The position numbers and the translations under genes were made by a program. From contig CAIIXF020000007.1 in NCBI GenBank assembly GCA_903813345.2, forward strand, positions 7,259,730-7,323,729: DNA of 64,000 nt, in the 5' to 3' direction. Shown piece after piece: positions 3,883 through 49,770 of the stretch (position 1 is its first letter; the number at the start of each line of letters is the position of its first letter). The DNA comes from Owenia fusiformis (lineage: Eukaryota; Annelida; Polychaeta; Sabellida; Oweniidae). Under the pieces are notes generated by a model. The model worked only from the letters and a program-made list of their open reading frames with translations, was not told the origin of the DNA and ran no database searches.

Positions 3883-4142
3883 TCAGAATGGTAGCTGACT
3901 GTTCAAAAAGAGAGTTTCTAGAAATAGAGGTACTGGGGTTACTGCCTCAAGTTTGTGAAAATATAGTCTCTGTAAACCCTCCCTACTGAGCGATCTTAGG
4001 TCTGGAATTTTGCCCAGTATTCGAGAGAAGAAGTTTGACACCTTCTGAGCCTGACTATTATAGGTACAATGATCTCTTAAACAGTCTATGAGTTTCATCT
4101 GTAGTTCTTCCATCTTCTTCGGCTCTTTGAGACCATGGCGCT
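3883..4142 (-). CDS. NR4A: NR4A terminal coding exon with AF-2 helix
   Basis: Acceptor GATGTTTTTCAG. Encodes [20 protein letters not shown] through the dimer and AF-2 helices to LFLNSQLPF and TGA at 3885-3883. The LPF carboxyl terminus is the NR4A signature. On the minus strand, AATAAA-like signals appear about 190 bp beyond the stop (near 3694) and again near 2942; I cannot tell which is used. Confidence 0.96.
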
Positions 4143-7100
4143 CTGAAAAACATCGAACACAATTCCGGTAAGAACTTGTCAATAAAACGAATTATGATTA
4201 GGCTAACACAAATATGATCATCCATGACATCCTGTCAGACCCACAGTTTGGATGTATTATGGTCCAGTTATATGATGAGGTGGACAGATAAAGAACTGTT
4301 TGTTGTTGCATCATTACTTCCCTTCAGTTCACACACTTACACAGGAATATTAATTTTATAAACGAAGGAATTGATACAAGACAACCAAATCTCAATATAA
4401 ATAGAGTCATTAAATAATAAAATCTGAATAAAAAAGAATTGTGCAATATTTATTAAAAAATTAATCTACTCACGGGTAACCATGGTGAGAGCAGCCATAC
4501 ATGACAACGATGAGATATCTAGGGGCATTCGGTGGAGATTCAATCCAAACTCAAAGATTGAGTTGATCCAGTCACCAAATGTTTTCAAACATTGATGTCT
4601 ATGCAGCACTTGGCCATTGCAGAATACAATTCGGTCATCATTCGGCTGTACCCTACAAAAACGGAGAATTGCGCTATGAAACCTAATGATTCTCTTGTCT
4701 TTTCATGATAATGGTATTCAAGTTAAAAATAGTAATTAAATTAAACTGGTTATGTGAGCTCAAACACCTATTATTTAACCTCTATCAGAAATTAATTACA
4801 ATTTTCTCATTAAACTAATACTCCAAATGTATGAAAAACACTGCCCTCCCTCCCGATGTCATTTAAATCTTTTTGGAACATTTCGCCAAATATACTTTAG
4901 AGATATGAACCGTCACCTTTAAAGATATTCAAACTACATACACATTCAAAAAACAATTCAACTCAGACGAAAATGCGGAACATAACCTCATCTTGGACGT
5001 AAAATTTAGATTCTAACTTGGATCTTGAATCTTTTAGACCTACCTGTATGCAACTCGCAATATGAACAGCTCTAGAGACGCTGATTGGAACAGCAGCTCC
5101 TGGTCTTCCGCACATAGCTCTGTAAATCCGGGAATCTTTTCAGCCCAAACTTTGATGACGTCCAGACAGGCAATGAGGATTTCGTAGAATTGTTGGATCA
5201 TATCACCTTGACTGTTGTCGATAGTCTCCAAGTCACCAGATTTGAACTGAAAATTAACGATTCATTGCTAGTTATGTATAATTTTGCACTATATGTACTC
5301 AACGGTGACCTGGATGTTCAACAAATGTATTAAATATCATGCGGTTTTTATGTAAATCGAGTGTACAATGTTTAGCATGGAATTTAATGTGAATTCATTT
5401 GCATGATAAATTATATTTTATCATTTTTATCCACTCTTGGATCTGCGCTCACTCGTGGAGATGGGCGATATCCACTCATGGATAAAAATGGTATACTTCA
5501 AAAATCATAGGATATCCTCTATATATGCTAGGCCAAATGGTAAATATAACTTACAGGAGTAAATTCATAAATAATAGTTGCTCAAGCTTATGTTAATTAA
5601 GGTCAAGAAAAGAAAATAACCAAGTACCAACTCCCAAGCATGGCCGTAAAATACTCAGCAACAAGCACCGAGCAGCACTTATTTGAAACGAGAACAATCT
5701 TCAAAACCAAACTTAGTCTCATTCATTTTAACATAGGTGTTCGTTGAGAGAGTTATTGTACACACCTTGGAGTAGTCTAGGTTGGGTATATCGGGGGCAG
5801 TATCAACGTGGGCGCGGACTAAAGAGGTGATTAGGCTGACTGGTGGAGATGGAGGTGACTCCTGAGGACTCTTGGGCTTAGATGGCAACCTCCCTCGTCT
5901 TCCCTTCAACCCTGCTGTTCTCACTACCTCCTTCACCATCCCAGTAGCCATGCATTTTTGAAAGCGACAGAACTGACATCTATTTCGCCGCCGTTTGTCC
6001 ACTGGGCAATTCTTGTCAGCTAAACAAACGTATTTGGCGTTCTTTTGTACAGTTCTCTGAAAGAAGAAAACGTTAATCATCAATATCAAAACGCATTCTG
6101 ACTTTTATACAGTTTTCTATGAGTTCACTAGAAGAATCATCAATTACAAAAACGTATATTACGTTTTTTCCTTACGGTTCTCTGAAAGAAAAGTAGGTTA
6201 AGCATTAATAACAAATTAATCTATGCCTGCATTAGATACAGACGTTGCCTTCATTATATTACTATCAATATGTGCTTCTCTAACCTTTGCTCATTAGGGT
6301 CCTTTGATCTCCATAGACCATTTATTAGCAATTACATTCAGGTTATTCATGAATAATTACATCTGTGAAATCTGCAATATCGTTATTTTGTGCAGGAACT
6401 GTACCTTAAAAAATCCTTTACAGCCCTCGCAAGTTCTGACCCCATAATGTTGACAGGCGGCGTTGTCTCCGCAAACAGCACAAAGCTGGCCCTCTTTGAC
6501 GGGCATCTCTCTGGAGGGGGAGGAACGGGTTGAGGTGGGGGTGGGGGAAGTCCCGGGGGAGTGAAGGTTGCTGTACTTGGCCATATCCATGCTGAAAGAC
6601 AGAGGGAGCCTGTCTGTATGGAAGTTACTCAACGCAAAGGACTAGTAGGCTAGGTCTGATTCATAACAAGTAGTTATATTACTCAAGACTGTTAGAAAGA
6701 ACTGCAATTACTGGGGTGACAGGCGTATTAATTAAGCAGAAGGCAAAGAGTGAAATTACTTTATTGAATTTCAAGAGAAAATTAATGATGTGAAAAAAGG
6801 CTCTTTGCACACTAATGAACTTACCTCGAGTCCGGCGTGAGCGGGCTGTTGAGATTCATCGAGGATCGGCGCCCTGAGAATGGCTGACGGGCAATCTGGA
6901 CGTTCAGATCAGCTCGATATGGTACACCGCCTTGAAACCCTGACTCTTGTGACAGCTTAAAGTCTTGTTCGAACATCCCAGCCTGGTAGCCTTGGTATGC
7001 ATCCCCGGGGAACATTTGCTGACCTGCAAACTGTGAGATCTTAGGTTCTATAAAGCCCGCTTGGAATCCTGCGCATGAGCTGTTACTATAATCCGGGGCT

Positions 7101-10100
7101 TCTCGTTTCTGGAAGAATTCCCCTTGTTCTTGTCCCTCGCCGCCAAAAGGCAAGCCTTGTTTAAAATAATTAGGCACATTGTCAATAGGATATTTTTGAT
7201 AATGTCCCTGATAGTGCATTATGACGTTAGGTTCCTTATCAGACTGAGTGGGACTGTTGCCTTGGGCGGGACGCTCCGATAAACACTCGTTGCTGTCATA
7301 CATGAACGACTGACTGGTATAAGTGTCTTGAAAGCTTGGCAAGGAGTTGGTGGTGGAATAAGATTGAGTGCCCTGCATGGGATTTTCAAATGTCTGTTGG
7401 TAGGACTCACACGGCGGTGTTCCGCTGGTGAAACTTCCCTCGCTTGGGTACTGCTGTGGAAACGACGCTGTCTGATAACTCTCGCCTCCCATATTATTGA
7501 TGCTATTAACACAATAGGCTGACGACGTCAAGTTCTCCACATTGGGCAAGCTTGAGTTGAAGGTCGTCTGAAAATACACCAAATCATGCACGTTAATTTT
7601 GTCTCAACTGAAAAACATGTGATCCGGAACACGATGCAATGTGGAGCACAGATATACATAATTGATAAGAGCGGTAAACTAACATCCTGAATAAAAGCAT
7701 TCTTCAATTCGTACATCCTCTGAAAGAATTCAAACTTCATCATCATCGAGTGTGCTTATCATCATTGGTGATGCTCATCTAGCATAACAATCGCCATCAC
7801 TGATCAGTCTTATGATTCAATTTAACACAGCAAATCGTATTGCCTCATTTCTCAAAGCCCATGTATTCAGTTTCTATAATACTTTGTCTACACATTTGTG
7901 TAAACGGTAAATCAGGCCTGAGAACCAACATGTCCTCGCACAGAACTAGAAAATGGTGAGATTAAATGGCTTAAAGACGCGGAGAATTTCACGGCAACGT
8001 ATAAATCTCTTTTCTTTAGTTTCTGATTGGTTTCTACAGACTTTGTTTAGCCTCCTACTGTTTTAAACATTCCAATATATTTACAACGGAAGGCATGACA
8101 CAAAAGAAAGAACATGCATAATCTGGCTTTTTGAATATTTCTGTCAATGTAATAAATTTTGCACATTAATGCGATGCCAATGTTCCCACGTTTTATAGTT
8201 CTCGTCGCAATTATCTTGTTTTGACTGAAGACGAGACACTAATGCATTTGGAAAGAAAGATATGACTATTGAATTAACTATGACATAAAGCCTAGTGCGC
8301 CCCAGGGGTGAATTTTCTTTCGAATTGGCTTTTTCGATATGAATTTTTGCGATTTCTTAAACTGTGTAATTACCAATTACGTAATAACTAAAGTGACTAA
8401 CTTAATTAGTCGTTTACAATTTTTTAGTCAAGTTTTGGTGTTGTTTTTACTATTTTTCAAATTCGGCTTAGTGTATACTTTCATCGAGATGACTTCAGTT
8501 CCTATAAACGCTATATTGAATAATATAAATGTGGCAAAGTGACATGCCACAGTGCTATGTAACGTAACAGGTAATACAAAATTTAATTTAATAATACTAA
8601 ACACAATCTGATTTTACTATGACCACAGTTTGAGATGTTTGAAACATTCACAAATTGATACATACAAACCTTAGTACTATTCTAAAAAATGAAATAACAC
8701 TGCACAACTTCGTGAAAATTGATCGATTTAATGCATGGTTTAAAATTCATTTCAATTAATTCATTTTCTGTGTTTTGACAATATGAATATTTTCAAAGCA
8801 TTGAAAATGTGACTATTTTCTATCATATTAATCAATTTTTTGCTCAGAATGGTTGATAATCATCAATATATATCTTAATATGATATGATATAATTTTATC
8901 TTTAAAAAAAATTAATTTAAAAATCTTTAGCCGTAGTCGGACGTGATTTTAAAACGATTAAAACATTAAAAATATATTGCATGCCAATTGCGGGCTATAT
9001 AGAATTTTTTCTAAGACGCTTCGCAAATTATATCAATGATTTTTAATTGTTCAAATAATTGTCCTTTTTAGGAGCTCTTTGAATAAAAGGAATCATTATT
9101 TTACGCTAGACGCTCTGGGCCATATTTGTTGAGAATAATAAGATATAATTTTTATATTGAAAATGTCACGACAAGGCCTGGACGCGACATACCTTTCATC
9201 AAAAAGCGAGTTGTATTGTTTTAGTCCAATAGGGAATTGATTTAAACGGGTACATCAAAGCTTAGTAGAGCTTACCTTTTTAAATACGTTTTACTTTTCC
9301 ATATAGGCATTTTATATTCTCGATGTTTTGTATTCTAATCCAAAACGACATGAAATAGAAACACGATGGGCTTTAATAAATTTTAATCATTGCTAATTTC
9401 GGATCAAGACCTTTTGGTGTAAATCAGGATTAAAAAGTTACAATGGAACTTTTTCTGACTCGGATCGACGTTATTGCGTTGTACAGACGCTTTGCTTTTT
9501 AGTTTGTGAAGACAATAGTTGTAACTCTATACCTTTCACGTACTCTCAGGCCATTACTGAATAAAGCAATTTGTCTCTATAGCTTCTTATTAAGACATAT
9601 ATTACTTCTATATCCCCAATATAAGTTGCCAAATTAGGAGTTTTTAATTTTAAGGGCTTTTTAATTGACGTTTGCAGAATGCACGGGGTTAAAAGTCAAG
9701 TCTATTTGTATAGGGTCACATATTACTACGCCATATTGAGAACCGGGTGTCATGGCGCGGGGTATGCACGTGTGTGTTAATTCGTGTAACACTATACTGC
9801 AATTTATCAAACGATTTTTCTGTCTTTTTTTAAATTGTAACATTATACTAACCATTTTTCAAACGACATTTGATTTTTAAATTCTACTTTGAAACAAATT
9901 GGTTAATTCTTATAGACTCCCCATGCAGCATACGCAATACTAGATAGTATAATATGTCCACATCATTAATTGATTCTTATTTAATTTTGGGTCCTGGACA
10001 GGTAGGATCCCCTTTTCCATTTATATATAATTACAACCTTTTTCCTTATTAGTTTATACTCCACCAGGGCATGTAAGAGCTAGACAGATATGGGACGATA

Positions 10101-10344
10101 AACCCTGGGCGCTCCACATCGGATTTTTGAGCAATTGACTACAGGCTCATTGATACTTTAGCCGAAATGTTTTTCGTATTAATTTGTGTTATGTTTACCT
10201 GCGCCTGTAGAACCAACATTGCTGTCGTATCGGAGCTGTTGTTGGGTAAAATAGTTCCGGTACTCGCCGAGTGGGGCGTCAATGCTTCCGCTGAAGACAG
10301 CCTGTTGGTTGTGTTTGTCGCAAGTGGCAGTTCTGGTGATAGTG
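3883..10344 (-). CDS. NR4A: NR4A-family orphan nuclear receptor (core gene, 8 exons)
   Basis: Immediate-early, ligand-independent transcription factor of the Nurr1/Nur77/NOR1/HR38 family; the family binds NBRE (AAAGGTCA) as a monomer in the nucleus. Coding segments, in transcript order: 10219-10199 (start MLVLQAQ), 7719-7684, 7567-6825, 6591-6405, 6056-5766, 5246-5044, 4652-4474, 4142-3883. They sum to 1920 nt, giving 639 residues plus stop, and every junction has GT-AG ends with matching phase. The first 300 residues are S/Q/Y/P-rich, as in the AF-1 region of the family. Zinc finger 1 has Cys304, 307, 321 and 324 with the P-box CEGCKGFFK; zinc finger 2 has Cys340, 346, 356 and 359. [13 protein letters not shown]-box and a ligand-binding domain ending LFLNSQLPF follow. 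Human relatives are about 598-626 residues. At the 4474/4142 junction the usual Glu before RHGLKEP is read as Gln. The frame is also open upstream of MLVLQAQ and can be extended by alternative 5' exons. Confidence 0.95.
4474..4652 (-). CDS. NR4A: NR4A ligand-binding domain exon 2
   Basis: Acceptor TTTTTGTAG, donor TACCC|GTGAGT. Encodes [20 protein letters not shown], then [11 protein letters not shown] and [11 protein letters not shown]. Bulky aromatic residues fit the known NR4A pattern of a ligand pocket filled by side chains. It has no ORF-length signal of its own because it lacks an internal Met in a long frame. Confidence 0.95.
5044..5246 (-). CDS. NR4A: NR4A ligand-binding domain exon 1
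   Basis: Acceptor TTAATTTTCAG, donor TACAG|GTAGGT. Encodes [13 protein letters not shown], then helices with [25 protein letters not shown] and [11 protein letters not shown], closely matching vertebrate NR4A2 in the same region. Confidence 0.96.
5766..6056 (-). CDS. NR4A: NR4A zinc-finger 2, A-box and hinge exon
   Basis: 97 codons, phase 0 at both ends. Acceptor TTCTTCTTTCAG, donor CCAAG|GTGTGT. Encodes [20 protein letters not shown], the Arg-rich loop, CQFCRFQKC, the [15 protein letters not shown]-box, and the start of the ligand-binding domain up to LDYSK. Confidence 0.97.
6405..6591 (-). CDS. NR4A: NR4A zinc-finger 1 exon
   Basis: Acceptor CTGTCTTTCAG, donor TTTAAG|GTACAG. After a Ser/Thr/Pro-rich linker it encodes [20 protein letters not shown] and then CKGFFK, essentially invariant in NR4A receptors. 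The intron after GFFK is a classical nuclear-receptor intron position. Confidence 0.97.
6825..7567 (-). CDS. NR4A: NR4A amino-terminal transactivation exon
   Basis: A 743-nt exon starting [13 protein letters not shown] and ending SPLTPDS. Acceptor GTATTTTCAG, donor CGAG|GTAAGT. It is rich in S, Q, Y, F and G (for example [22 protein letters not shown]), which is typical of a disordered AF-1 domain. It leaves two bases that the next exon completes to Ser. Confidence 0.93.
7684..7719 (-). CDS. NR4A: NR4A 36-nt microexon
   Basis: It encodes [12 protein letters not shown], exactly 12 codons. Acceptor GAATTCTTTCAG and donor GGAT|GTTAGT are both in phase 0 with their neighbours, so the exon can be skipped without breaking the frame. 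An alternative reading is that translation starts at ATG 7746 ([15 protein letters not shown]), with the apparent acceptor unused. Confidence 0.7.
7747..10198. other. NR4A intron, no feature seen
   Basis: Very AT-rich intron between the exon at 10344-10199 and the 36-nt microexon. I see no exon with matching splice sites. Confidence 0.6.
10199..10344 (-). CDS. NR4A: NR4A shared 5' coding exon with MLVLQAQ start
   Basis: Acceptor TATGTTGCAG and donor GCAG|GTAAAC bound this 146-nt exon. The frame that fits the downstream exons is open throughout and contains ATG at 10219, giving MLVLQAQ. This resembles the vertebrate NR4A start MPCVQAQ and is placed similarly. Entered from upstream with one leftover base, the exon adds about 41 residues before that Met ([17 protein letters not shown]...). 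It is therefore either 5'UTR plus start or an internal coding exon, depending on the upstream exon used. Confidence 0.8.
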
Positions 10345-12472
10345 CTGCAACATACAAAAATACAATGTTTTGAGTTTCTTTCTTAAAATTGAACATGATA
10401 TTACTTGTTTATGATAACTGTACCTCTGAATCGTATGCCCTCGCACAATCCTAATTTGTAGTTAGCAAGTCTCCAATTGATATGGAAATTATACCATCAA
10501 GGTATAATCAGTCCTAAGGTTTACACCATTTAATGGATCTCATTTATCTCCCCTACCTATATCTAAGTCATTTTTATAATAAGTTGACGCGTTTCACTTA
10601 AAACCTCTAAATGTTGGAATCATTTATTTGTGTATTTTGGATAAATGTATGTAAATATGGTAAAACAAAAAAATATATTTACTTTTCGTTTTGTTTCGGG
10701 TTTAATATCTAGCCTGTCAGTAATCAAAATACAATTAAGAATTGAGGTTGGGCGGCAAAGCCAGCAAAAACAAAGTTAAATATATTGTATTTCCCAACTT
10801 TTTGAAATGAAGTGAGACTCGAGTGCAAAAAAACACAAATGGATTAATAAAGCCTTTCAGCCGTCTGTTTGTATCAAGAATTGGTAAATTGTAATTGCGT
10901 TCAAAGTTGCTTCAGGTTTTTTCATGTTTGCCTTTGCTTATTTGATGACTGTCCTCAACTTGACTTGACGTTTCGTCGGCATTTCATTCAAAAGAAAATC
11001 AACGATTTTTGTTGGAAACACGTGCTCCTCCTTGTCTACGTCTGTCTCGCTACAGTTGTTTTGAAAGTTTTGCAAACCTACTTCCATCCTTGTACCCGTT
11101 TCTTGTCTCTAAAAATGGTTTGGATTTCATATCTGGAGGGATTAGACAATTGTAGCATAAGTAAAGAAATATGTTTTAAAAAGTAGGTATATAATAGTGA
11201 AAGAATATGAGGATTGTCACTGTTACGCTATATCACTCATGAGTGCCCCTTGAGTTGCCAATTGCCAGTACCGTTCAAAGTCGGCTTGGCATACCCCTGT
11301 TAGCAGGAGATAAACTTTACATGTTTGGGTATACAAACAAGCCTTGACGGCATCCAAGAATAGGGCCCGCTTACTAAAGCCATCACATCACTTGAAAGTA
11401 AACCACTTGATGATGCATTTTACGCTGTTCATTTGTATATAACGACCTTTGTTTGTTCAGAAGTCGCAATAAGCAATAACAAATCAGTAATTATCGGGAA
11501 AATGTTTTAAGTTAATGATACTTTCCGGCGTATGCGAAGGTGATTAAACGTGCTCGGGTAGAATTATGGAGCTCTCGTTTGTTCGCCACCAAGTTCAGCC
11601 TTACACAATGACCCGCATTCTCTACAAGTTGTTAAAAAACTTGACGATCTCCTACACTAATTTGCCACATTTTAAAGTTATGTCCTAAGATATGAAACCT
11701 TTTTTTTAAATCGCGCTAGGTATAAGCCTATCATATCGCTAGGTGTGTCATATTTTCAGCAAACTTGAAATATCGGTAGGAAAGATCTGCTTCATATAAT
11801 ATAAATTTAAAAAAAAATCTTAATTTGGAAAAATCCCACAACTGTTGTTGAGACACTGTTGTAAAATTTTCGCCCAAAAATGGAACTGAACGTATTCACG
11901 AAAGCGCCTATTATAAGTTTTCGGCAAATGAATTCGCGTATATAAATATCCCCATCTAGCCCTCCTTTGAGACTAGGTATTATTACAAGTTAAAACCCCT
12001 CTCACTCAAACGATGATGGGGATATGTTTAAATTTCTTCAATCACTTAATTGACTGCGGTTAAGTCATTATCTTTTCTCACTGATTAAATTCCATCAAAT
12101 ACTCCGCAAGAGACTTGCTGACATTTTACTGTATTGGCCCCCTATTTCGTGACATTTTCATTTAATATCAATTAAATAGTTGTTATAGCAATTACGGGAG
12201 ATAGGCAAGGAACACAATTTATTAATTGATTACTGGATGAAAACTTCCGAAAATTGTGGGTATACTTTTATCAGACACCGTACTTCGGTTAACCCAGCGA
12301 TTAGGTTTCTTTAGTTGTTTGATGTGCAAATACTAAATAACTACTTTGATCATTGGATAATTTGAATTGAATTGAATTGAATTTTGCCAAAAAAATAAAA
12401 GTTAAAAAATAAGAGATCTAGACTAGCTTAAAAGCTAGCAGTGTAATCAGATATATTTTACACTTTATCGAC

Positions 12473-13029
12473 TTAAAGGCCGAGTTCCGGGAAATATTAA
12501 CACAATTGAACATGTTGAACAACTAATATACATACTTTCTGTGGCTTGGTTGAATGGCTATTAATCCCAAGTTCCGATGTGCCTCATCAAGAAGACGATA
12601 GAGTGACAAAGATTATGTCAAGCGGGGTTTATAATTTCTGTGCAAATTTTCTTCTTGGATCGAAAAATTTCATTTTAATTCGATTAACTTACGATAGGTG
12701 GCAAAAGGTCTAAAGGTAGGTCACGTGACACAAAACAACGAATCATATGACACGAAACAATGATTCATTCGCCAGATGGCGCAGTTAAATGAGGTCAATT
12801 TTACGACAAACGAAAACCGTTTAGCTAAGCTTCAATTTTGCTCTCGCAGTCGAACGAAACTGACACTTCTTTCGTTGATATCTAGGTGAGTGATTTTTTT
12901 CAGGCTCCGGTATTTTGACAAAAGTAAGTTCACGTCGTAGCCATTCTTAGGGGCAGGTTTGAGGCACCAACGATTTATTTTGAAGTTTTTCTAAGGAATT
13001 ATTCCCGATTTCCGATATTGTCCCTTTAA
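12473..13029. mobile_element. TTAA-bounded inverted-repeat element
   Basis: Both ends carry TTAAAGG pointing inwards (12473 on plus; CCTTTAA ending 13029), followed by loosely matching CGG/AAAT-rich sequence. TTAA target sites are typical of piggyBac-type elements. No transposase frame, so non-autonomous. It includes a CACGTG E-box at 12722 and, on plus, a donor-like ATCTAG|GTGAGT at 12885. Confidence 0.4.
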
Positions 13030-13837
13030 CAACTTTTATTACATCCGTTATCATTTTAATAAGGAGCTAATTAGAGAAATTAAATACGTTTTTTATGTTC
13101 ACACGGACTCGTAAGCAAAAGAGAAAACGTTATCGGATTCACTTCACTACGTATCACTATAATTAGTGGTTCGCTATCAGAATAAACTAGAAAATAGCTG
13201 TTTTTAGCGTCTTGTGCTGATCTATTATCTGTCATGCGACATTGTACATCTAACTTGTAATTAAAAGTGATAGCGAAAGGTAGATGTAGATACATGGATG
13301 TAAACACATATTACTGTCACGTTGTTTTAGTTATAGTTGGAAATAAAATCATTTTCAAATTCCAAATATGTTCGCTGTATTTGGAGAACGCCTTGTTCTA
13401 TGGTACTAATTGCAATTTTTTTTTAAAAAACAGTAATAAAACTGAACTCAATCCAACAAACATTTGGTTTTCAGCCACAATTTGACCTACGCAATAATCA
13501 TAAAGAATTCCGGTGGTGATTTTTATGTGCCATTTTATTACTAACCATCTGTGAAAATTACTCTTTAACTTACCCGTTTACGTTCTGGTTGCAAAAAAAC
13601 ATTAATTCTCCAAATCTAGTACTTAAACGCAAACAAGTTAACTCGTACGAGCTGCAATTTTTTAAGAGTCGATTAAATAATATTTACAACTCGGCATTAA
13701 TACTCCCGAATCTTGCTCTCTCGGTGATGATGGCGTGGTTAAAGTGCATCATATTATCCAGGTCGCAATACTTACTAACAACCTTGCTTTCGTAAGTTAC
13801 CCCCTCCATGGGTTTCATTGATGGCGAATAAAATACA

Positions 13838-13845
13838 TGACGTCA
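13838..13845. promoter_or_regulatory. Palindromic CRE between NR4A exons A and 10344
   Basis: A perfect TGACGTCA. It could serve a promoter giving the short MLVLQAQ isoform, or be an intronic enhancer site. Confidence 0.35.
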
Positions 13846-14140
13846 CTTTTCATTGATGTTAAGGATCTGAAGACGCTTGGAAAACTTCAGGAAACGAATG
13901 TACTAAGTACTAACCCCCTGCCCTGAATTATTCACTCTTGCCTGCATAGTTGCCGTAAGGATGAACGGATGTGAGGGTAAAAACTGTGCACACGTCTTTA
14001 CAGTGTGCTTATTTGACGCATCATTTGATCGAGAAATACTCTTCCAAGATATTTAAATATTGATTGAAAATACCAAACGAAATGATTAAATTGAAATTAC
14101 TTTTTTATAATGATAAAGCAGTTCTTCTGATATGACTTAC

Positions 14141-14260
14141 CGGAGTTTTGCCGATTCCAGTTTGTTTGCTGTTGTCGAGACCAACTTTGGTCGTGATACG
14201 CCGAATGCCAGTCTCCCAAACTGACTTGACTATGCATAGGCATACTATACATTTTATAAA
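14141..14260 (-). CDS. NR4A: Candidate alternative/cassette N-terminal exon of NR4A (A)
   Basis: Donor CTCCG|GTAAGT is consensus. The frame leaving one base is open from the acceptor-like TATTATCAG at 14261 to the donor. It reads MYSMPMHSQVSLGDWHSAYH and then a Q/N/W/S-rich stretch ending NWNRQNS. The residue composition suits an NR4A amino terminus. With the acceptor, the exon is 120 nt, enters and leaves in phase 1, and could be a cassette between the 22.6-kb exon and 10344. With its own promoter it would be a first exon starting at ATG 14250. Joining it to 10344 continues the receptor frame. No expression evidence is available here. Confidence 0.6.
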
Positions 14261-14646
14261 CTGATAATATAATAACGATAACACTATTTCCCTTAATTGT
14301 ATGCTCATTAACATATGTAAATGTTTCCCTGGTGTATTTTCCTAATTTATTTGTTTTCGTTTTGTTTTTGCAATTATGTTTTATGAGCTATTATTTTTCT
14401 GCTGATCTGAAAGTAATGTGACACGATGGGGGCCCTGTATCCTCTCCCGGTCCATCCACAACTTCTTATTCAAGATGATTTCTCATATGAATTATTACTG
14501 AATATGAATATGTAATGATTCAAAACGTGATGTTTGAATTAAGGAAATGAAGATTAAAGTCAAAACACCGCCAATTTGGAAGAGACGCTATTATCTTGCA
14601 TGATACATGTAGCTAAAGGCAAGTTTTGATTGTCAAAAAAACTTAC

Positions 14647-14713
14647 CGTTATAAGTGATCGCCCTTAAATGATGGTACAACTGCGCCCCAAACGGATAAC
14701 TTAAAGTATGCAT
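14647..14713 (-). CDS. NR4A: Candidate alternative first exon of NR4A (B)
   Basis: ATG at 14713, then 22 codons (MHTLSYPFGAQLYHHLRAIT YN) and one leftover base at a consensus donor AACG|GTAAGT. An in-frame TAA lies eight codons upstream, so the Met is the first available. The phase matches the shared exon at 10344. The short length makes a chance match possible. Confidence 0.45.
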
Positions 14714-15216
14714 CGCATAAAAGCACCATTGTTAGTCACACTATTATCTAATTATTACACATGCTAATTATCTTGATCACTAGCTGAGATAGACCTTTGT
14801 CCAGGAAAAAAACGGAACCTGTTTTAGTGCCGCTGTTAGCACAACTTTATTTGCGCCAAGACTTAAAATGACGAATGGTGAAATGCATTTTTTATTGCTA
14901 ATAATATAATCAATTGATAAATTAAATGTCACAATAAATGTGTAACTTGTAATTTTGCACGTACATCTATCAAGGCATGTCATTTATATAATTGTTTCTG
15001 AAACACCTGTAGACTGGTAGTTACTATTAAAAATGACAACCGTTTCCATAGTGACCTTAAGAATATTCATAGTTCTGAGAATTGTTGTTTACCTGTCAAT
15101 GAAAGTTTTTATTAGAGATAGGCACCTGAATGCTGGTTCCCTTGGTAATCGTTTGATAAAACAATAAATTAAAACAATAAATAAGTACTAACAATCAAGT
15201 GTTTGTTAATTCTTAC

Positions 15217-15280
15217 CCTCAAAATGCTGGTAGAAATTGTGAGGTGATGTGAGTTTTGCAACTTCCATATACATTTTCAT
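15217..15280 (-). CDS. NR4A: Candidate alternative first exon of NR4A (C)
   Basis: ATG at 15280 (further in-frame ATGs at 15274 and 15268), 21 codons MKMYMEVAKLTSPHNFYQHF E, and donor GAGG|GTAAGA leaving one base. The phase matches the shared exon at 10344. A CACGTG E-box (15291-15296) and an AT-rich TATA-like stretch near 15315 lie just upstream on the minus strand. Confidence 0.5.
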
Positions 15281-16537
15281 TCTTCACTCCACGTGCCTCC
15301 CACACACCGCACCATAATATACTACATCATAAATTGCCGCGATTCTTCATAGAGCAAGACCCACGAAGCCTCCCCTCATTAGAAATACCTCAATCAACAG
15401 ACAACACGGGTCTTGTAAACCAATAGGAACACTAAATATTAAAGTGATAATTTGCATAATTAATAATATACTTATCATTTAATAGCGTATCGTGACATTT
15501 TAGCTAGGAATGGTACGATTCATATGTTTTTGAAATTGTCGAATGCTTTTTTCTAATCAAATCAGATTAAGTATTTGACTTTAGCGAAAGAGTGCGCGAG
15601 GGAAAATAGTTCATGAGACGTTAAAATTAGAGCTTTTGCGGAAAAAGAATGATGTGTTAAGAGTTATGTACCAGTAGATCAACTGTAGTAACGATGACAT
15701 TTGGGATGAAGTTATCATACATTGACCGATAAAATGCGGGAATTTGTGTTTTCAAGTGAGACGTTCCCTGCGGGCGGTTGATGTGAACATCGAAGTTGAT
15801 TATAAAAAATATTAAATCATAATGACATTTTATGCCAAAAAATAATTTGTATACAGGCTCCTAAAAGCCAGACGTACTTCTGATCATAAAACAGGCCAAT
15901 GAAGTGATGGCACTTTAGATTTAGAAGATATCTCTGATCAGTAGGGTTCGCCACTCGTGAGCGGGGATATGATTTAGATGCCGACTCATGAGAACGTTAC
16001 TTCACGTGCAACAGTCACTAGGGACCGAACGAGAGACAATCTTAATTAATTAATGTAGTATTTGACTTAAATGGAAAGCTTACGGAACGAGAGTTATGAA
16101 TATCAATTACAATATACATTATAAAATCTGTTACCAAAATGCACAATTATCAAAGTAAGCACATATTACGGTACCCTAGTCCGGTGCCTTGGCTTTTTGT
16201 TTTCATTATTTTATTGTCATTTAGTGATTAGTGATTTCAATAATATTTAAACAATTAAATTTTACTATCCTGGCTCATTCGGCTTCACAAAAGGCTTGCG
16301 TCAGATTTGTAATAAATAATGTGTTCTTATACGGAATAATAATTAACATGGAAACGGTTTTCATATTTTAATACAGCCTAACTTTTGAAACCGATACTGA
16401 AAATGTATGAAATACTGCAAATAAGTGTGTTTTTATCAATTGTAACAATAATTTAAAGATGCGTTTCGGTAGTCATATAACGCCGAACTGGTCTTTTAGA
16501 TAAAATATAGAGAGACCAAATTAGTTAAAATATATAC

Positions 16538-16640
16538 CTGTTGTGTTGTATTGTGTATGAGGATAGTACGATCTGCGGGAGTGGAAATGATAGTCCGGGT
16601 AATCAGGGGGAGTGAGCATTTGAGAGAGAAATGAGAACAT
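16538..16640 (-). CDS. NR4A: Candidate alternative first exon of NR4A (D)
   Basis: Two in-frame starts (ATG 16640, MFSFLSQ; ATG 16619, MLTPPDYPDYHFHSRRSYYP HTQYNTT) run to donor ACAACAG|GTATAT with one base left, the phase needed for the exon at 10344. An in-frame TAG precedes the first ATG. A TATATATA motif at about 16714-16722 sits about 75-85 bp upstream, suitably placed for a start site near 16690. Tyr/Pro-rich composition fits an NR4A activation domain. Confidence 0.55.
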
Positions 16641-16713
16641 GAATGTCCGCCCAATGATTATCCCAACCTAGTTCCGGTCAGTCATGGATTGTTTGACACC
16701 TTCTTATAACTTG

Positions 16714-16722
16714 AATATATAT
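16714..16722 (-). promoter_or_regulatory. TATA-like box for NR4A exon D
   Basis: On the minus strand, TTTTTATATATATTC; distance and orientation suit transcription starting near 16690 into candidate exon D. Confidence 0.35.
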
Positions 16723-16972
16723 AAAAAGTTCGGAATTAAACCGCCGACACTAAAATGTCTCTGCCTTCGCCGTAGAACTTGTATGGCCCTGTTTATTGAT
16801 TACCACGACATCTATTTGAATTCTTAAAGATAATCGATGTCTTTCTTTAGGTAAGATGCAATTCCACTTCTTCAGTAGATGAGACTCTGTATCGATTCCG
16901 TTATTGATCCCTTGCCCTTGAACGCATTCAGCAGACGATCTACTGTATAGTTAAGACGTAGGAGAATGTTGC

Positions 16973-16980
16973 TGACGTAA
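16973..16980. promoter_or_regulatory. CRE-like site upstream of NR4A exon D
   Basis: TGACGTAA, a common functional CRE variant, about 250 bp upstream of the TATA motif that precedes candidate exon D. Confidence 0.35.
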
Positions 16981-17330
16981 GTTCTGTTCCAATCTATCTA
17001 TACCCTGGTGTAACCCCCACGCACTCCTACAACTCTCAGCCTTCGGCGCCTGGATCTTTATAAATTAAAATCACTTTGCAATTTTTCTATATCGCCATGT
17101 AATACTGATACAGTTCAAAAGCACGTGTTGCAGTTTTCGAGAGGTTGTAAAGCTTTGATCTGGATGCCGTATTGTCACTCGAGGATGGGCTCTAAAGCGC
17201 ATCTGTGTCTGTCCCTATCGCCATGATACGTCAACCAAATTTGACAAATTACGCTTAATAAATGACCAACTAACAATAGCGTTTGTTCCTGATTTTAGTT
17301 TTTACAGATAGATATATATCCTACTTCATT

Positions 17331-17344
17331 GTTACCATAGTAAC
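17331..17344. promoter_or_regulatory. Perfect RFX X-box palindrome
   Basis: GTTACCATAGTAAC matches the RFX consensus GTNRCC-N2-RGYAAC at every position. It lies in the NR4A 5' region, about 620 bp upstream of the TATA motif of candidate exon D. Confidence 0.55.
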
Positions 17345-20300
17345 TGATGATATCAGTACTTTAATTAACTGATGTTTTCAGAGCCAGATCTGTCGTTAAA
17401 ATATGTTTGTAAGATAGATGTTGTTCTCCTAGAATCTCCGATTATATCTAGGATTTGTAATTACAATCGTTACAGCTGTATAGATTGTGTATCTCCGAAA
17501 TATTCATGCATGTGTCTCACTATATATTTAACTTGTAATGATTTCAATTTTATAGTCACCACTGTCTGTTATACTCGTGTGTTTACCCACTTGAAGTCAC
17601 GAATTAATGGTAAATTTTGAATAGATTAAAGAATTGATAATTAATTAAACTGATTTCAGCATCGCTTTGTATTGATGTGTACATTGAGTGTTCTGTAGGT
17701 GGTGGTTGTTTGAATGCTTTATCCCCAAAACCTGTAAATGCTTATTTTATACTAGCAACTACTTGAAAGTGATCGCTCATCTACGTATGCGTATATACAC
17801 AGACGTAAGAACTAATAAATTAGGCAAGAAGAGAGATGCTTCTTTTTGACATGAGCCTCAGCGTTTCGCTAATTTATTATCTAAAAAAAGAAGTTCTAGA
17901 AAGCGGTCCGCCAAGTATACGGTAACCATGGCAACGGAAGCAAGTGGCCATGGTAAGTCGGGTGCCCTTACAAAAATGAAACTGCTAACTCATTCAGGAT
18001 GTTATTGTCAATGAGCATAGCATTGAATTGAACAAATAGCAAGCATGAATTACGGATGTTGCAATTATATGAAACCCACGAATTAACCTTGGAATATATT
18101 TTTTCACGTAAACATATCAAAACCTCCAAATATTTCTTGACATTCTGCAGGAGCAATGTGTTAGGTAAGGTAAAGCATTTGGTAAGTCGATGCTATATAT
18201 ATTGAGTCTCAGGTACACGCAGGTAATACGGTGGTACCCCTAATAAAACTAGAATCACTTTAAAAAAGACATAAAACATTAAAATCAACAAAATATAAAT
18301 TTAAAATATAGGCATAATAAAACTCAACCTATAAACCGTTGTTTTCTTACTTAGAGCTCAATATCATGAATTATTTGCAAAACTGTTCGTAGAATGTAAA
18401 AACGTTTGGAAGACAGTTAGGGACAGGTGTGAATAGTCCGATGGGCGACCCCTACTTCGTTCGAAAATAACACCTCGTGCCTATCTGTGAACATCGGTAA
18501 TTGGCACCATGGGCCTCGAGATGAGCTAGTTTCATTTTTTACAAATTTAGTTTGTTATCAGACGCATTTCTACTCATGGTAAATAAATCTCATCGGAAGA
18601 GAGAAGTAATTTAATCTCTCAAATTAGTGAACCTCGAAATGTATTGAAAAATAACAGGTATAAAACCCAGTCATTACGGCAATATCCGATCGTATTAACT
18701 TGGCTGAACTTTTAGGTTCCATTAACCCATTTTGACGTCGATGATTAATTCTCCGTAACTTGGGACAACCCCACGTGGAATACAAAATAAGAAAATCGGA
18801 AAATGATGATCGGTTAAACATTGAGAACATTGTGCGTGAAACTGCGGAAATTCTGTTAGATTTGGGTTACCATCAGACCCGTAGATAGCGTGAATCCCCC
18901 TACAATTGGCCATAAATCCTTTCAAAATCATGCAGTTTTTCACCACTCTGAGCAGTTTCGAGTGGTTTGGGGCCAATGTTGTCAAATGTGAATCCATCTG
19001 GAATTTTTTGAAAAAGGAACCCCTTGGCAAAAGCTGGCTAAGGACCTGATCACTATCCATTGACTTTCACGATGCCGTGAATCGATCAAGATCACGATAC
19101 AATAACAATTGAAATGATCATAAAAAGACACATTCATATTTTCTATTGATTGACTTGCACGTAGTCCGTGCATCGCTGTTTCTAAATACGATAAGCGTGA
19201 TCTGGAGACGCCTACGCCTTGATAGCGCTATTAGTACGTATACGACTGAGACAAGGAATCATCGTAGGATCATCATACATTTGACATTTGCTGTTGGTTA
19301 ACCATGCTCCTTTTTAGTCACATGTTTTAATTTATTGATTTGTATATATACTGACTGGATGTCAGGGCTTCTGATAAATATAAGCAATAAACGTGCATTT
19401 TTATGTTCACGACAAGGCTAAGTCCCATTTACGAACAAATAAAGCTGATTCTAAACAAATTGATGAAGTAAATAATATAATTATCAATTTGCATTTTAAT
19501 CACTCCGAATAACCATTAGAGGAACCAATACCCATGCAATTAATAGTAATAAACAATCTAATATATGACAGATAATATGTGTTATATAGGTCTACATCAA
19601 TAAAAATCGCTCTTGAAACAACAGTTTATTTATGAAATTGTCATTCAAAATGCTATCAAAAACGCCATTGTTGTTCTGGTCGAATACTCAGAAAACATGT
19701 GTGAATTTCAATAAATAAAAAAGGATGCTAGATTTTCCAGGAATAACAAACATCATGAATATTCACGTCGCACTGACAAGAAAGAGACGTAAGGACCAGA
19801 TCAATGTTTGTTTTGCTTCTAAGCTCATAAAACACGTTATAATAAGTACAAATAAAACAATTGTAAAAATGAATACATTCCAAACAAACAACAAATGCAT
19901 CGTTAAGATATGCATATTTCTAATAGTAATAGTCATCAAGTTTGCACGGTTTCACTTGGAAATTGGCCATGGTTCAATGATTATTCACTTGAACATAGTT
20001 GATTACGTTCATCTACCTTTAGTTGTGATGCGAGAAGCAGTTATGCCCAAAGCGACAAATCCATGGTCACAAAATTCTTCTCTAAAATGATCTGATTTAA
20101 GTATTTGGCGCATTTTTGTTCAATGTACATTTTTGCTTTTGTACAGTTGAAATTGTTAGAACGTTAATAATACACCGTGGCTCGTATTTCTGGAATATTT
20201 TTAACTGTAATATTTACAAGGTTTTTAATTACAAAAGTATTCAAAATATTGTTCTAAAATGTGCACTTAAAAAAGATGCTCCTAGGGACTTTAATTAGTC

Positions 20301-22367
20301 TCAAGAATACTCTCTTTTACCAGAATTTTGACGGATTTATCCTTGATCAATGAAAATGTGAACTTAAGAACATAGATATTGAATTTACTTGAATATTTCC
20401 TTGATATTTAAAGGATATAACCAATAAAAATCCTCTAAATCTGAAAAGGCCATCATCAAATGAAAAAGTGTACTGTTACAGAAAGCGACGTCGAACATCG
20501 GCCCACAAAAACGGTGGTTATAAACAATAGGGAGTTTAAGCTTGCAATGTTTTTTACAACCTAAACGTGAACGGAAAATATTTAAGCGACGCATTTGTAT
20601 GGGCGATTGGTCATACGTATAGGTTGGCGTTTCGATTTTATATGCAAACTTAAACTCCCTAATGACGACGTCGAACATCGGTCACAAAGAACTTTGGTTA
20701 TAAACAACGTCACCTCTCACTGTGTGAACAATTTTAAATATCCTTTAATCCTGGTACATCTGATTGCTTTTAAATAAATATATAGAATAGATAAAATTCC
20801 AAGGTAAATCCTTATTGCCCCTTTATTTTGAGAATAATTACCTTCAATATTATCCCCTGGCTTTGTTTTTTCAGTGAGCATCAAATAAGCGTTTATCCTC
20901 TACTGCGTTTAATGTCTCTAAAGTGTGAATGGAACCTCCCAAATAAAGTCACATTGGTACTGTACAATGCCGTCCGCTCTAGTATCCAACACGTAGAACT
21001 TATTGTTGAACGTATATTATTTGATTGATGTAAGAAAACTGTTTCTTAGTCAGTAGTGTAATTATCTAACTAATAAAAATGAGCGATCGACTTCTTCTTG
21101 GGCTGTGTTGTAACTAAGTAGAAACTACCCCCTCAGCTCCTTATGTGTGACGTAGATCAGCCTTGAAGCAGAACCTGGGAGAGGACATCTTCAATGCAGT
21201 GATCGTTTTCTCTCGTATCCTCAGTTCTTAAATACGCATGTGCGCTATAATCGTTTAGTAGGTGATAACATCTAGTCCTCCTAATATGCATATATATTTT
21301 AATGAATCAATTCATAAATGTTTAAATGCAATTATTGTTCAGGGGACCAGCCATGGTGCATTTGTATATGATACTGTTGTTAGAGTCGTATAAGTGGATA
21401 CTCCCCGATTGTGTATACAGTATATGCCGAATGTTTGCCTTCTGACTAACTCCCTGAACGATCAACTGATAGGGCAGTAATCTTGCACAAAATAAACCTC
21501 ATCAAAAGTATAAAACGTGCAAACTAGGTTGGCCCATTTTGGTTTTACTGTCTACGAGTGAATTGATCAAACAAAAATCAACTCCGGATCCACCCATGTT
21601 CTGTCGTGTATCCAAAATGGCTTTGTAAAAAGCAATTAGTTAACGTAATTTGAGAATGCATTAATTACATTTGACCTAGTTCCTGATTTTTTCAATCTTA
21701 AGTTCTAATTGTTTTCTTTCGAATGTCCAAGTTCTGGTTTGGTGCATGTTCCGCTCATACGCACGTCTCGCATCAGTGAAACTACACAAGCTTGCATCCT
21801 ATTCAGTTCACCTTGAATATCCTTCGACTATATATTTTCCAAGATTCCAGGTCGAGAAAAATAATCCATTTCCAAATATTGCGCGTTTACTAGTTCTCGG
21901 TGTTTGTTTACGAATTCTTTATTTACGGGTCCAACTGCAACTGTCTGTTGAGGCCAAGACATCCACGCAACAACTTTGTCTTTCCAATAATACGGCATAT
22001 AATCGATCAGTCCTTATGATTATCCAGTCTTAATTCACCATCTTAAATCCGTTATAATTCCCTCGTATTTTGAATACTATGCTTAATGTTAAATAGATAT
22101 TTTTAATACATATGAACACTTAAATATAGAAAGAACCACTCGGATCGGCTTGTTGGTGGGGGAGATATCGTGTTACATAACAATCTATAAAATTATATAA
22201 GTCACCGGGGAAAACACAGCTAGATTCTCTCAAATAAGCAATAATTCTGGACGGGGATAAATTACTTTAAAAGTGTTCACAAATATACTTTGCAACTAAT
22301 AGTTATCATTAAACTTTATGATTTATGAATCTAAATAAAAAATGACAACGTCTTGTGGAAAGTTCTG
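17345..22367. other. NR4A 5' intron/upstream DNA
   Basis: No exon with both phase and donor support. At 20487-20527 and 20666-20706 a block beginning GACGTCGAACATCGG is directly repeated. Between the two copies, AGGGAGTTTAAGCTTGC has an inverted partner GCAAACTTAAACTCCCT. The 65-bp stretch at 18899-18954 recurs, diverged, near 61850-61904. Confidence 0.45.
17922..17935. promoter_or_regulatory. Perfect RFX X-box palindrome
   Basis: GTAACCATGGCAAC, a full match to the RFX X-box consensus, 577 bp from the previous site. Flanking bases differ, so it is not a recent copy of that site. Confidence 0.55.
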
Positions 22368-22383
22368 AGGTCAGCTGAGGTCA
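22368..22383 (+). promoter_or_regulatory. DR4 nuclear-receptor response element motif
   Basis: Two perfect AGGTCA half sites in direct orientation separated by GCTG. This is the DR4 arrangement used by RXR heterodimers with thyroid hormone or LXR-type receptors. It lies about 200 bp inside the intron after exon E of NR4A. Confidence 0.5.
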
Positions 22384-22578
22384 GGTAAAAAGAATTATGC
22401 TAGAATGCTCTCAAATGAATATTATTTGTCATCGTGCTCGCAGTTGTGCGCTTAAAATCATGTATTGTTTATGCTGATATTATATTATAGTGTATGATTT
22501 ATTTTGTTTATATATTGTCTATGTGTACACGAACAGGTGTGAAATTTCAAAGACAGCTGATAATGATCATAGACTTAC

Positions 22579-22675
22579 CTGGCTTGGGGGGTGAAGTGCC
22601 GTATGCCCTGACCCAACCTCCCGATTCCAGTTCACTATCAGCTCCTGTAATCCACTCGGTGTTCTGATAACGCAT
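22579..22675 (-). CDS. NR4A: Candidate distal first coding exon of NR4A (E)
   Basis: ATG at 22675 begins MRYQNTEWITGADSELESGG, continues WVRAYGTSPPKP and leaves one base at the consensus donor CCAG|GTAAGT. Joined directly to 10344 it extends the receptor to 713 residues; with cassette exon A as well, 753. The frame stays open upstream to an in-frame TGA near 22818. An ACTAAC branch-like motif plus CCCTGAG at 22727 could instead make this an internal exon starting at 22726. The coding-like sequence, strong donor and fitting phase together support it. Confidence 0.6.
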
Positions 22676-22798
22676 GAATGTATTGCCCACCACACACCGT
22701 CCGTCTTCGTGCTCAACGTTACAATTCTCAGGGCAAATTGAAACATGGTTAGTATATATTTCACTATCATCGTAAGGCAGGTCCCGGGGAACCGTGAG

Positions 22799-22978
22799 TG
22801 ACGTAGAGCAGCGTCATCCCTGACGTCACTGCATTACAATATGCATTCCTAGTAATTAGTCTGCTATATGGCGGTGCTACTATTGGCTCATAGATAATTT
22901 CCAGTGTGCTTGTAATACCGCTGTCCGTCAATGCACGACTGCTTCGTTGCAGTAACGTCACTGGGGTATTTGACGACA
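22799..22978 (-). promoter_or_regulatory. CRE cluster at the presumed distal NR4A promoter
   Basis: A perfect palindromic CRE (TGACGTCA, 22821-22828) lies within 180 bp of four variants: TGACGTAG (22799), GCGTCA (22811), TAACGTCA (22953) and TGACGACA (22971). A CCAAT box on the minus strand (ATTGG near 22882) is included. A TATATA stretch at about 22750-22760 lies between this cluster and exon E. CREB-driven induction of NR4A genes is established in vertebrates; use here is inferred from motif and position. Confidence 0.6.
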
Positions 22979-23298
22979 TCGGAGTTCCCCCTCTTGCAAC
23001 TAAACATAGAACAAGCACAACATTAGCACATAATATACACCGTCAGTAATCAATATTATAGTTCTAGGAGAGAAGGTCGATAAAGTATTAACATAAGTCG
23101 GTTCTTCACTTGCCTTCTACCTTACTGCTTTACGTATTCAATCGGGAACTGTCGTAAGGAACGGATATTTTTAGCACCGCTCGATATTTTGCAGAGAATC
23201 TGCTGCAATCGAGTACGGAGTACAGGAATTGATAGCATCCCTGCTAAGTTTCTTCGCGTTTGGGAACTCCCCCTCACCTTATATGGGAACCGCATCAC

Positions 23299-48870: not shown

Positions 48871-49770
48871 TTTAAATGAAAACCGTGCAATTCCAAGCGG
48901 CTTCCTTGAGTAACAGTTAATCTCTCATTTAGTTTGCTTTGGAAACTATAGGAGAAGTAGGTCAAAGTTCACCTGCTTATGAAAACCTTTCATCGGCGAC
49001 GGGAATAACCAATTTAAATATACGCTATTTTATCATTTCTAATTGACTAATTGGAACAAAATGATGCACAACAAAGTAAAATTTAAATTATTTTTAAATC
49101 ATTCAAAATATAAATGTGATTGATAAATCAATTAATCGGTTATTGGTCGATTAAAAACACTGGGAATATTTGTGTGAGCGGTCCCCAATTTTCAGAATGA
49201 TCAGCTCCCCAAGTCTATTCAGGGGGAGTGAATAGAACAGCCAATTCCAGAATCCGGCTGCACGTTTTGTCAATCTAAGGAAATCTACATCATTTGATCA
49301 AGCTGAAATCATTTAATCGTCTAAGACCAATAAAAGACACAAGTAAGTAAAAGTCCACCTCATATACTTTTAATCATGTAAGAGAATTTTGGCCATACCA
49401 GATTGAAAAAGTTCGAAATGAAAGTTCTTTTGTTGAATGATGAATCTTGAGGAAATGGATATGAGATATGACAGTACAATGGTTGAATACTTGAAATATA
49501 AACATTGCACAGTGGTTTAATTCTCTAACTGTTGCACTTTTAATTGTTTTTCTCTTGATGTGATTAAAATATTTATATGATATCAAATAGATAAGTGTAA
49601 ATAGATCTTTTGTGTGCCAAACAAACAACAATGTCCAGATTAGAAAATCTGCAAGTACAAAATGAAATCATTTGATTTTATCAGCAATTCCATGTCTGTC
49701 GTCTGATCTTTTACTTTAAAACATTGATGATTACTTTCGCCTTCATCAAATGATTCTCTCATTTTAGATA
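48871..49770. promoter_or_regulatory. Bidirectional intergenic interval between FADS and UBE2E
   Basis: The two start codons face away from each other across 900 bp. On the minus strand, ATATTTAAATTGG near 49005-49025 is a TATA/CCAAT-like pair about 140 bp before the desaturase ATG. On the plus strand, CTCTCATTTTAG|ATAATGG at 49756-49773 could be an acceptor, so the UBE2E promoter may lie at an upstream non-coding exon. Confidence 0.4.

Follow-up and report, generated by a model that had tools for sequence, protein, structure and literature searches.

Does this nuclear receptor gene of the annelid Owenia fusiformis have one beginning or several? The gene is complete within the 64-kb stretch of DNA analysed here (the window), on its minus strand, and the original prediction gave it an array of at least five short, interchangeable coding exons, all spliced to one shared exon and each supplying its own start to the activation domain. 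Our answer lies in between. One distant promoter seems convincing and several further first exons seem possible; these extra exons may give the protein different beginnings.

The gene has seven exons and seems to be an ordinary invertebrate NR4A nuclear receptor. Exon 1 (10199–10344; acceptor ttgcag, donor CAG/GTAAAC) is common to all candidate starts. Exon 2 (6825–7567) encodes the N-terminal domain and has one stop-free frame; the others contain 5 and 17 stops. The first zinc finger falls in exon 3 (6405–6591) and the second, with the hinge, in exon 4 (5766–6056), as placed by the C4 zinc-finger DNA-binding domain match of the joined protein (PF00105, E 5.5e-30). Exons 5 (5044–5246), 6 (4474–4652) and 7 (3883–4142, which ends the domain and carries the stop) encode the ligand-binding domain, as placed by domain (PF00104, E 1.3e-23) and structure matches. 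The best solved-structure match is NR4A2 (7wnh, E 8.5e-153), and the HR38 structure 1pdu is fourth among the best 60 listed. The weakest donor of these exons scores 5.2. RNA families and tRNAs were looked for and none was found; single pattern scans of prokaryote-genome and viral-contig collections, for orthologous loci present as animal contamination, gave 19 and 6 pattern matches respectively, none encoding a relative.

NR4A proteins have a conserved start, M-x-x-[ILV]-Q-A-Q, and NR4A1 usually begins at MPCIQAQ. The shared exon contains a start of this type: its ATG at 10219 opens MLVLQAQ and gives a receptor of 627 residues. The resemblance to MPCIQAQ comes from one comparison, with the NR4A1 peptide in an excerpt of PMC8564633. 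The original prediction correctly identified the acceptor exon (10344–10199) and missed this start, which means that an upstream coding exon is not required. Ahead of the ATG lies an open lead of 41 codons, with a 30% probability of being open by chance. The claim that only one phase reads on into the receptor held up: frame 0 of the shared exon has a stop inside the exon, and frame 1 is open throughout, but the sole stop-free frame of exon 2 joins the third.

All five upstream donors lie exactly where they had been placed, each with a GT after it, and each ends a Met frame in the usable phase (longest versions 37, 22, 21, 34 and 32 codons at 14141, 14647, 15217, 16538 and 22579). The candidates are of unequal strength. 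The best, and a convincing one, is the 32-codon coding part at 22579–22675, MRYQNTEWITGADSELESGGWVRAYGTSPPKP: its donor (CAG/GTAAGT) scores 12.9, the top among the 42 sites listed in 10.4–37 kb, and its coding score, the best of the five, is equalled by 0.9% of 321 background frames. The candidate at 14141–14252 has a 37-codon frame rich in Tyr, Gln, Ser, Asn and Trp (CCG/GTAAGT, 11.3). Weaker are those at 14647–14713 (22 codons; ACG/GTAAGT, 10.4), 15217–15280 (21 codons; AGG/GTAAGA, 9.0) and 16538–16640 (34 codons; CAG/GTATAT, 5.9). The last of these is non-consensus, a correction to the prediction's wording, though it still scores above the weakest donor of the gene itself.

Are so many in-phase frames more than chance would give? 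We scored minus-strand donors with an approximate frequency matrix, from the shared exon to the last recognised exon of the upstream gene (10.4–37.3 kb), and called those scoring at least 9 strong. A donor passed if it ended a Met frame of 21–46 codons in the usable phase, and expectations came from local dinucleotide shuffles. Five of 14 strong donors pass against 0.87 expected (P 0.00095); the counts in the remaining phases are 0 and 1. The 46-codon limit leaves out phase-0 Met frames of 58 codons at 14141 and 64 codons at 22579, which suggest that both places just contain few stops. With the limit dropped, the phase counts become 2, 5 and 1; for the plus strand here they are 0, 1 and 2 of 9. 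At a threshold of 5.9, 10 of 70 donors pass against 3.66 expected (P 0.003); the remaining phases have 3 and 8, and the 8 is itself somewhat high (P 0.045). Between 10.4 and 23.4 kb, a boundary set post hoc by the finding itself, four of six strong donors pass against 0.43 expected (the six become five when the first 300 bases, with donor 23278, are skipped); a control region at 41–63 kb gives 1 of 9 against 0.59. We dropped the idea that all five are mere chance because simulations and local shuffles show a phase-specific excess, and on this the prediction was right. Its counts were less exact. It had reported three failures between 13 and 30 kb, where 7 of the 12 donors scoring at least 9 fail, and its list of five, each confirmed, omits a further passing donor at 24024.

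The five peptides had been described as unrelated in sequence and alike in kind. Unrelated they are: no ungapped DNA repeat of at least 22 bases links two candidate exons, and the best of the 10 peptide pairs (14141 with 22579), equalled in 17 of 500 shuffles, is no convincing similarity. We therefore rejected the possibility that the exons are duplicates of one another. Likeness in kind is true of part of the set. The pooled Tyr/Ser/Gln/Asn/Trp/Pro content is 0.447, where the background averages 0.281 (P 0.0006, GC-matched), for residue classes that the author of the prediction picked after viewing the peptides. Taken singly, 14141 (P 0.003, reached by 0.3% of GC-matched frames) and 16538 (P 0.028) are unusual; 14647, 15217 and 22579 are ordinary. 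The codon evidence for the claimed frames is weak. A codon model that took its amino-acid part from exon 2 plus the final seven codons of exon 1, applied with the longest Met, ranks the claimed frame first among the three forward frames in four of five segments; under a generic protein model that frame is best in just two. Codon scoring is not decisive here, because in the shared-exon lead a wrong frame outscores the right one.

Above the 22579 exon lies a cluster of CRE half-sites that marks a candidate immediate-early promoter. Eight half-sites fall within 250 bp (22799–23045, minus strand), two of them counted from a full CRE, TGACGTCA, at 22821. This density was reached in none of 300 second-order simulations; the half-sites contain CpG and the cluster sits in a CpG-rich region, and the simulations preserve its region-wide CpG frequency. 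In the 350 bp above each Met, half-CREs number 0, 1, 0, 1 and 7 for the five candidates (14141, 14647, 15217, 16538 and 22579). TATA[AT]A motifs are frequent, with 32 on the minus strand between 10.4 and 23.4 kb, and a TATATA lies above the 16538 candidate at 16723. Full CREs number four in the window. A CArG box, one of nine in the window, lies further upstream at 23277. An excerpt of PMC7156746 describes Nur77 as an immediate early gene that carries CRE sites.

Could this be the only true beginning? It is possible, though unlikely in our judgement, that the sole real first exon is the one at 22579, or an unseen one, and that the other four are chance frames and donors in an AT-rich 5′ intron. 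The 16538 donor is weak, the promoter-like cluster is found at 22579 only, and some 3.66 of the 10 matches at scores of at least 5.9 are what the shuffles predict. Moreover, the 14647 and 15217 candidates are ordinary in composition and each has an out-of-frame ATG (at 14729 and 15315, respectively) that overlaps its start. However, strong donors other than 22579 still pass in 4 of 13 cases against about 0.7 (the sum of per-donor chances), and the rare composition of 14141 also stands against this account.

We favour, with about even confidence, an NR4A gene that has a main CRE-rich promoter and one to three further first exons. The main immediate-early promoter would lie at about 22.8–23.0 kb, and the first exon ending at 22579 would splice some 12 kb onward to the shared exon at 10344. 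Of the other candidates, one to three, likeliest from the 14.1–16.6 kb group, would use the same acceptor as alternative first exons. Where a transcript includes an upstream in-phase Met, the receptor would be extended at its N terminus by 21–37 first-exon residues plus 42 residues from the junction and the shared-exon lead, before the ancestral start; where it does not, translation would begin at MLVLQAQ. The extension is perhaps an option offered by some of the extra first exons. Splicing of alternative first exons into 10344 is a plausible part of the prediction, given the phase excess (P ∼0.001) and, independently, the CRE-rich stretch above 22579.

The leading alternative, though a doubtful one, is that the upstream exons, though alternative, do not code for protein, so that every isoform starts at the ATG at 10219 and yields the same protein. 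The NR4A-type start in the shared exon is what this account expects. Other features also suit it. TATAAAA at 14258, above the 14141 candidate, would place the transcript start near 14228, which is downstream of each of that exon's three Mets. Another strong donor, at 13574, has a full CRE at 13838 and does not pass the phase test; only as the end of a noncoding exon would it make sense. Human NR4A genes reportedly have multiple noncoding first exons, as the title of a 2011 paper by Demura et al. has it. Those genes likewise have several first exons, but theirs are called noncoding whereas several candidates here have Met frames in the receptor phase. Neither the phase-specific excess of such frames nor the in-frame score of 22579 is predicted by noncoding exons.

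Some points about the start codons speak against the favoured reading. The frames at 14141 and 22579 are preceded by out-of-frame ATGs that stay open as far as the donor (14314 and 14308 for the former, 22770 and 22746 for the latter). T at −3 is a poor start context, and both the Met at 16640, in the 16538 exon, and that at 22675, in the 22579 exon, have it.

We consider it improbable that the locus swaps the start of the activation domain among at least five interchangeable coding N-terminal exons, all with separate promoters. The phase-specific excess and the pooled residue content both speak for such an array. Against it are the start within the shared exon, the weak 16538 donor, three ordinary peptides, the TATA at 14258, the out-of-frame ATGs overlapping two of the exons, and the restriction of the promoter-like cluster to 22579.

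How does the favoured arrangement, a main promoter with a few further first exons, compare with known systems? Clustered protocadherins and UGT1A have duplicated, homologous variable exons. Like these clusters, the candidates here would place many upstream exons before one common acceptor, but they are very short and lack the DNA repeats or convincing peptide similarity of homologous tandem duplicates. The NR4A family itself offers closer parallels. Excerpts of three papers list NR4A1 and NR4A2 with the human genes that have distant alternative promoters (PMC9308330), give an NR4A1 peptide with residues ahead of MPCIQAQ (PMC8564633) and describe two NR4A3 isoforms whose N termini differ by 11 residues (PMC12275858). 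Such N-terminal variation therefore occurs in the family, although in these excerpts as one difference per gene against up to five candidates here. Since both multiple first exons and N-terminal isoforms have been recorded in human NR4A genes, an arrangement of this kind is nothing new. Among the matches listed from open-licence papers, no title deals with alternative first exons in an invertebrate NR4A gene. Insect egr (stripe) has two alternative promoters, according to an excerpt of PMC6140108; it is likewise an activity-induced transcription factor with CRE/SRE elements, but belongs to a different gene family and has two promoters.

What would several beginnings mean for such a receptor? 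An excerpt of PMC7883379 describes NR4A receptors as regulated through their expression level and not by ligand. If the extra coding starts are real, a choice of N terminus coupled to the promoter would be one means of giving a single ligand-independent receptor several activities, and NR4A alternative first exons would look older than vertebrates. At its fullest the idea is a long shot: at least five coding first exons, short and unrelated, would be spread over 8.5 kb under separate promoters, and a stimulus would pick the N-terminal peptide placed before a constant activation domain. The more modest reading, in which a distant promoter rich in CREs lies some 12 kb upstream of the first conserved coding exon, would already aid annotation, and the insect counterpart is activity-induced: in the cricket, hr38 is strongly induced by neuronal activity (PMC6140108, in part).

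On its minus strand the window contains a complete NR4A nuclear-receptor gene, whose seven exons span 10344–3883. Exon 1 (10344–10199), exon 2 (7567–6825), exon 3 (6591–6405), exon 4 (6056–5766), exon 5 (5246–5044) and exon 6 (4652–4474) are each bounded by an AG acceptor and a GT donor, and exon 7 (4142–3883), the last, follows an AG acceptor. Translation from an ATG at 10219 gives a 627-residue product in which Pfam recognises a C4 zinc finger and a ligand-binding domain; among the matches listed, the nearest solved protein is NR4A2, with HR38 in fourth place. This is an animal gene. Read by eye, intron 3 appears to contain a degenerate duplicate of the beginning of exon 4 at 6135–6190 (minus strand), some 125 bp upstream of exon 4 itself: ttctttcag is followed by AGAACCGTAAGGAAAAAACG..., a short reading and then a stop.

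The original prediction, an array of at least five alternative N-terminal exons feeding exon 1, overlooked a receptor-frame start codon inside exon 1 itself, from which the protein begins MLVLQAQ. The usual start of NR4A1 is MPCIQAQ, and the residues that precede it in one printed peptide are an N-terminal extension. That peptide is printed as KADGIMWLAKACWSIQSEMPCIQAQ (PMC8564633). Judged by sequence, the ancestral start appears to have been kept within exon 1 of the window's gene, and a normal receptor needs no upstream coding exon. The 41-codon lead before this start is open in the receptor frame, as is another frame; the probability of an open lead is 30%. It is well supported that this is an ordinary NR4A gene whose own start looks conserved.

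The five candidate first exons are named here by their minus-strand donors, at 14141, 14647, 15217, 16538 and 22579. For each of them, the donor, its phase and the length of the Met-initiated open frame agree with the original description, and a single frame does continue from exon 1 through exon 2 to the zinc fingers. An approximate donor matrix, applied to every GT site of the minus strand, gives the gene's own donors scores of 5.2–11.9 and the five candidates 12.9 (22579), 11.3 (14141), 10.4 (14647), 9.0 (15217) and 5.9 (16538). The upstream region was taken as 10.4–37.3 kb, because a separate minus-strand gene probably lies beyond. Each local upstream stretch was shuffled with dinucleotides kept, and Met frames of 21–46 codons were counted. 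At scores of at least 9, 5 of 14 donors carry such a frame in the one phase usable by the receptor, against 0.87 expected (P 0.00095 from shuffles, the true significance being lower because the finding was chosen for this very property); the other two phases give 0 and 1 of 14. At a score of 5.9 the usable phase accounts for 10 of 70 donors against 3.66 expected (P 0.003, shuffles), while the other phases give 3 and 8 (P 0.045 for the latter). A control region at 41–63 kb yielded 1 of 9 donors where 0.59 were expected, and 6 of 55 where 2.83 were (P 0.063). Third-order Markov simulation of the upstream region agreed with the shuffles: at score 9 the simulated mean is 0.5 and none of 400 simulations reached the five observed, and at score 7 the observed 6 of 42 stand against 2.06 (P 0.0175). 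Without the length limit, phase counts at score 9 are 2, 5 and 1 of 14 on the minus strand, the plus strand giving 0, 1 and 2 of 9. The in-phase pattern is not trivial.

The evidence that these frames are coding is mixed. With codon scores weighted towards the N-terminal domain that exons 1 and 2 of this gene encode, the fraction of 321 background frames scoring as high is 0.009 for 22579, 0.028 for 16538, 0.04 for 14141, 0.115 for 14647 and 0.115–0.206, depending on the start, for 15217. Under a general protein model with the same background, 22579 stays at 0.009, and the others are at 0.302–0.402 (16538), 0.202–0.246 (14141), 0.312 (14647) and 0.377–0.449 (15217). In a comparison of the forward frames within each segment, for which the amino-acid part of the model left out the lead, the claimed frame ranked top of three in 4 of 5 segments when the longest Met was taken and in 3 of 5 when the shorter Met of 16538 was; the general protein model placed it top in only 2 of 5. 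The proposed richness in Tyr/Ser/Gln/Asn/Trp/Pro holds for 14141 (P 0.003) and 16538 (P 0.028), the other three peptides being ordinary (GC-matched P 0.25–0.39); pooled, the five give P 0.0006 for a residue class that the original prediction itself had picked. They are indeed mutually unrelated: 17 of 500 shuffles equalled the best of the 10 pairs.

NR4A genes belong to the immediate-early class, and CRE sites are described for nur77 (PMC7156746). From its sequence, a distant immediate-early first exon ending at 22579 is a well-supported and convincing candidate. Eight CRE half-sites fall in 250 bp from 22799 (a full TGACGTCA at 22821, one of four full CREs in the window, counted as two), a density reached in 0 of 300 second-order simulations of 10.4–37.3 kb. 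Within 350 bp above the Met, 22579 has seven half-CREs, 14647 and 16538 one each, and 14141 and 15217 none. A CArG box, one of nine in the window, lies at 23277. Two earlier ATGs of the 22579 exon (22770 and 22746) are out of frame and open to the donor; a TATATA at 22758 would set the transcript start near 22730, past both, so that 22675 would be the first ATG, and another at 16723 would let transcription begin upstream of the Met at 16640 in the 16538 exon, this TATA-type motif occurring 32 times on the minus strand of 10.4–23.4 kb. The 14141 exon likewise has earlier out-of-frame ATGs open to its donor (14314 and 14308), and a TATAAAA at 14258 would start transcription near 14228, past all three in-frame ATGs, so this exon would be noncoding. 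Out-of-frame ATGs at 14729 and 15315 overlap the starts of 14647 and 15217, respectively. Position −3 of the start context is T at 22675 and 16640, and A at 14252 (14141 exon) and 15280 (15217 exon).

On this reading of the sequence, the gene probably has one to three further alternative first exons, some of which may contribute an N-terminal extension. The set of five interchangeable activation-domain starts originally envisaged is possible but improbable. Such an arrangement already has precedents in NR4A genes: multiple noncoding exons 1 are the subject of one paper's title, distant alternative promoters are described for human NR4A1 and NR4A2 (PMC9308330), NR4A3 has two longer isoforms 11 N-terminal residues apart (PMC12275858), and the printed NR4A1 peptide (PMC8564633) also counts among them.

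A strong minus-strand donor, CGG|GTAAGT at 13574 (score 11.5), failed the phase test; a full CRE, TGACGTCA, lies 264 bp upstream at 13838 (13574–13845, minus strand), and the segment, if an exon, is possibly a noncoding first exon. Of the 40 500-bp bins flagged for many CpGs or an observed/expected ratio above 1, 31 lie in 8–30 kb (8001–30000), a concentration suggestive of an unmethylated regulatory domain surrounding the 5′ end of the NR4A gene. A 114-residue open frame at 18722–19066 (minus strand) has no credible Pfam match (best E 0.046, under the cut-off).

The upstream neighbour, at 37422–48924 (minus strand), resembles a front-end fatty acid desaturase gene, in which a cytochrome b5 exon (48638–48924, Pfam E 1.6e-17) is accompanied by two desaturase-like pieces under the Pfam cut-off (44051–44292, E 0.00077; 37422–37733, E 0.042), all on the minus strand, and the two pieces stand in the correct order along the profile. 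Among the pieces of this gene lies a large minisatellite (38193–40455; 54.6 copies of a 42-bp unit, 92% matches) with long open frames on both strands. At 20486–20707, a 42-bp direct repeat (83%), its copies 180 bp apart, flanks a 22-bp inverted repeat (91%); this may be the remnant of a small mobile element.
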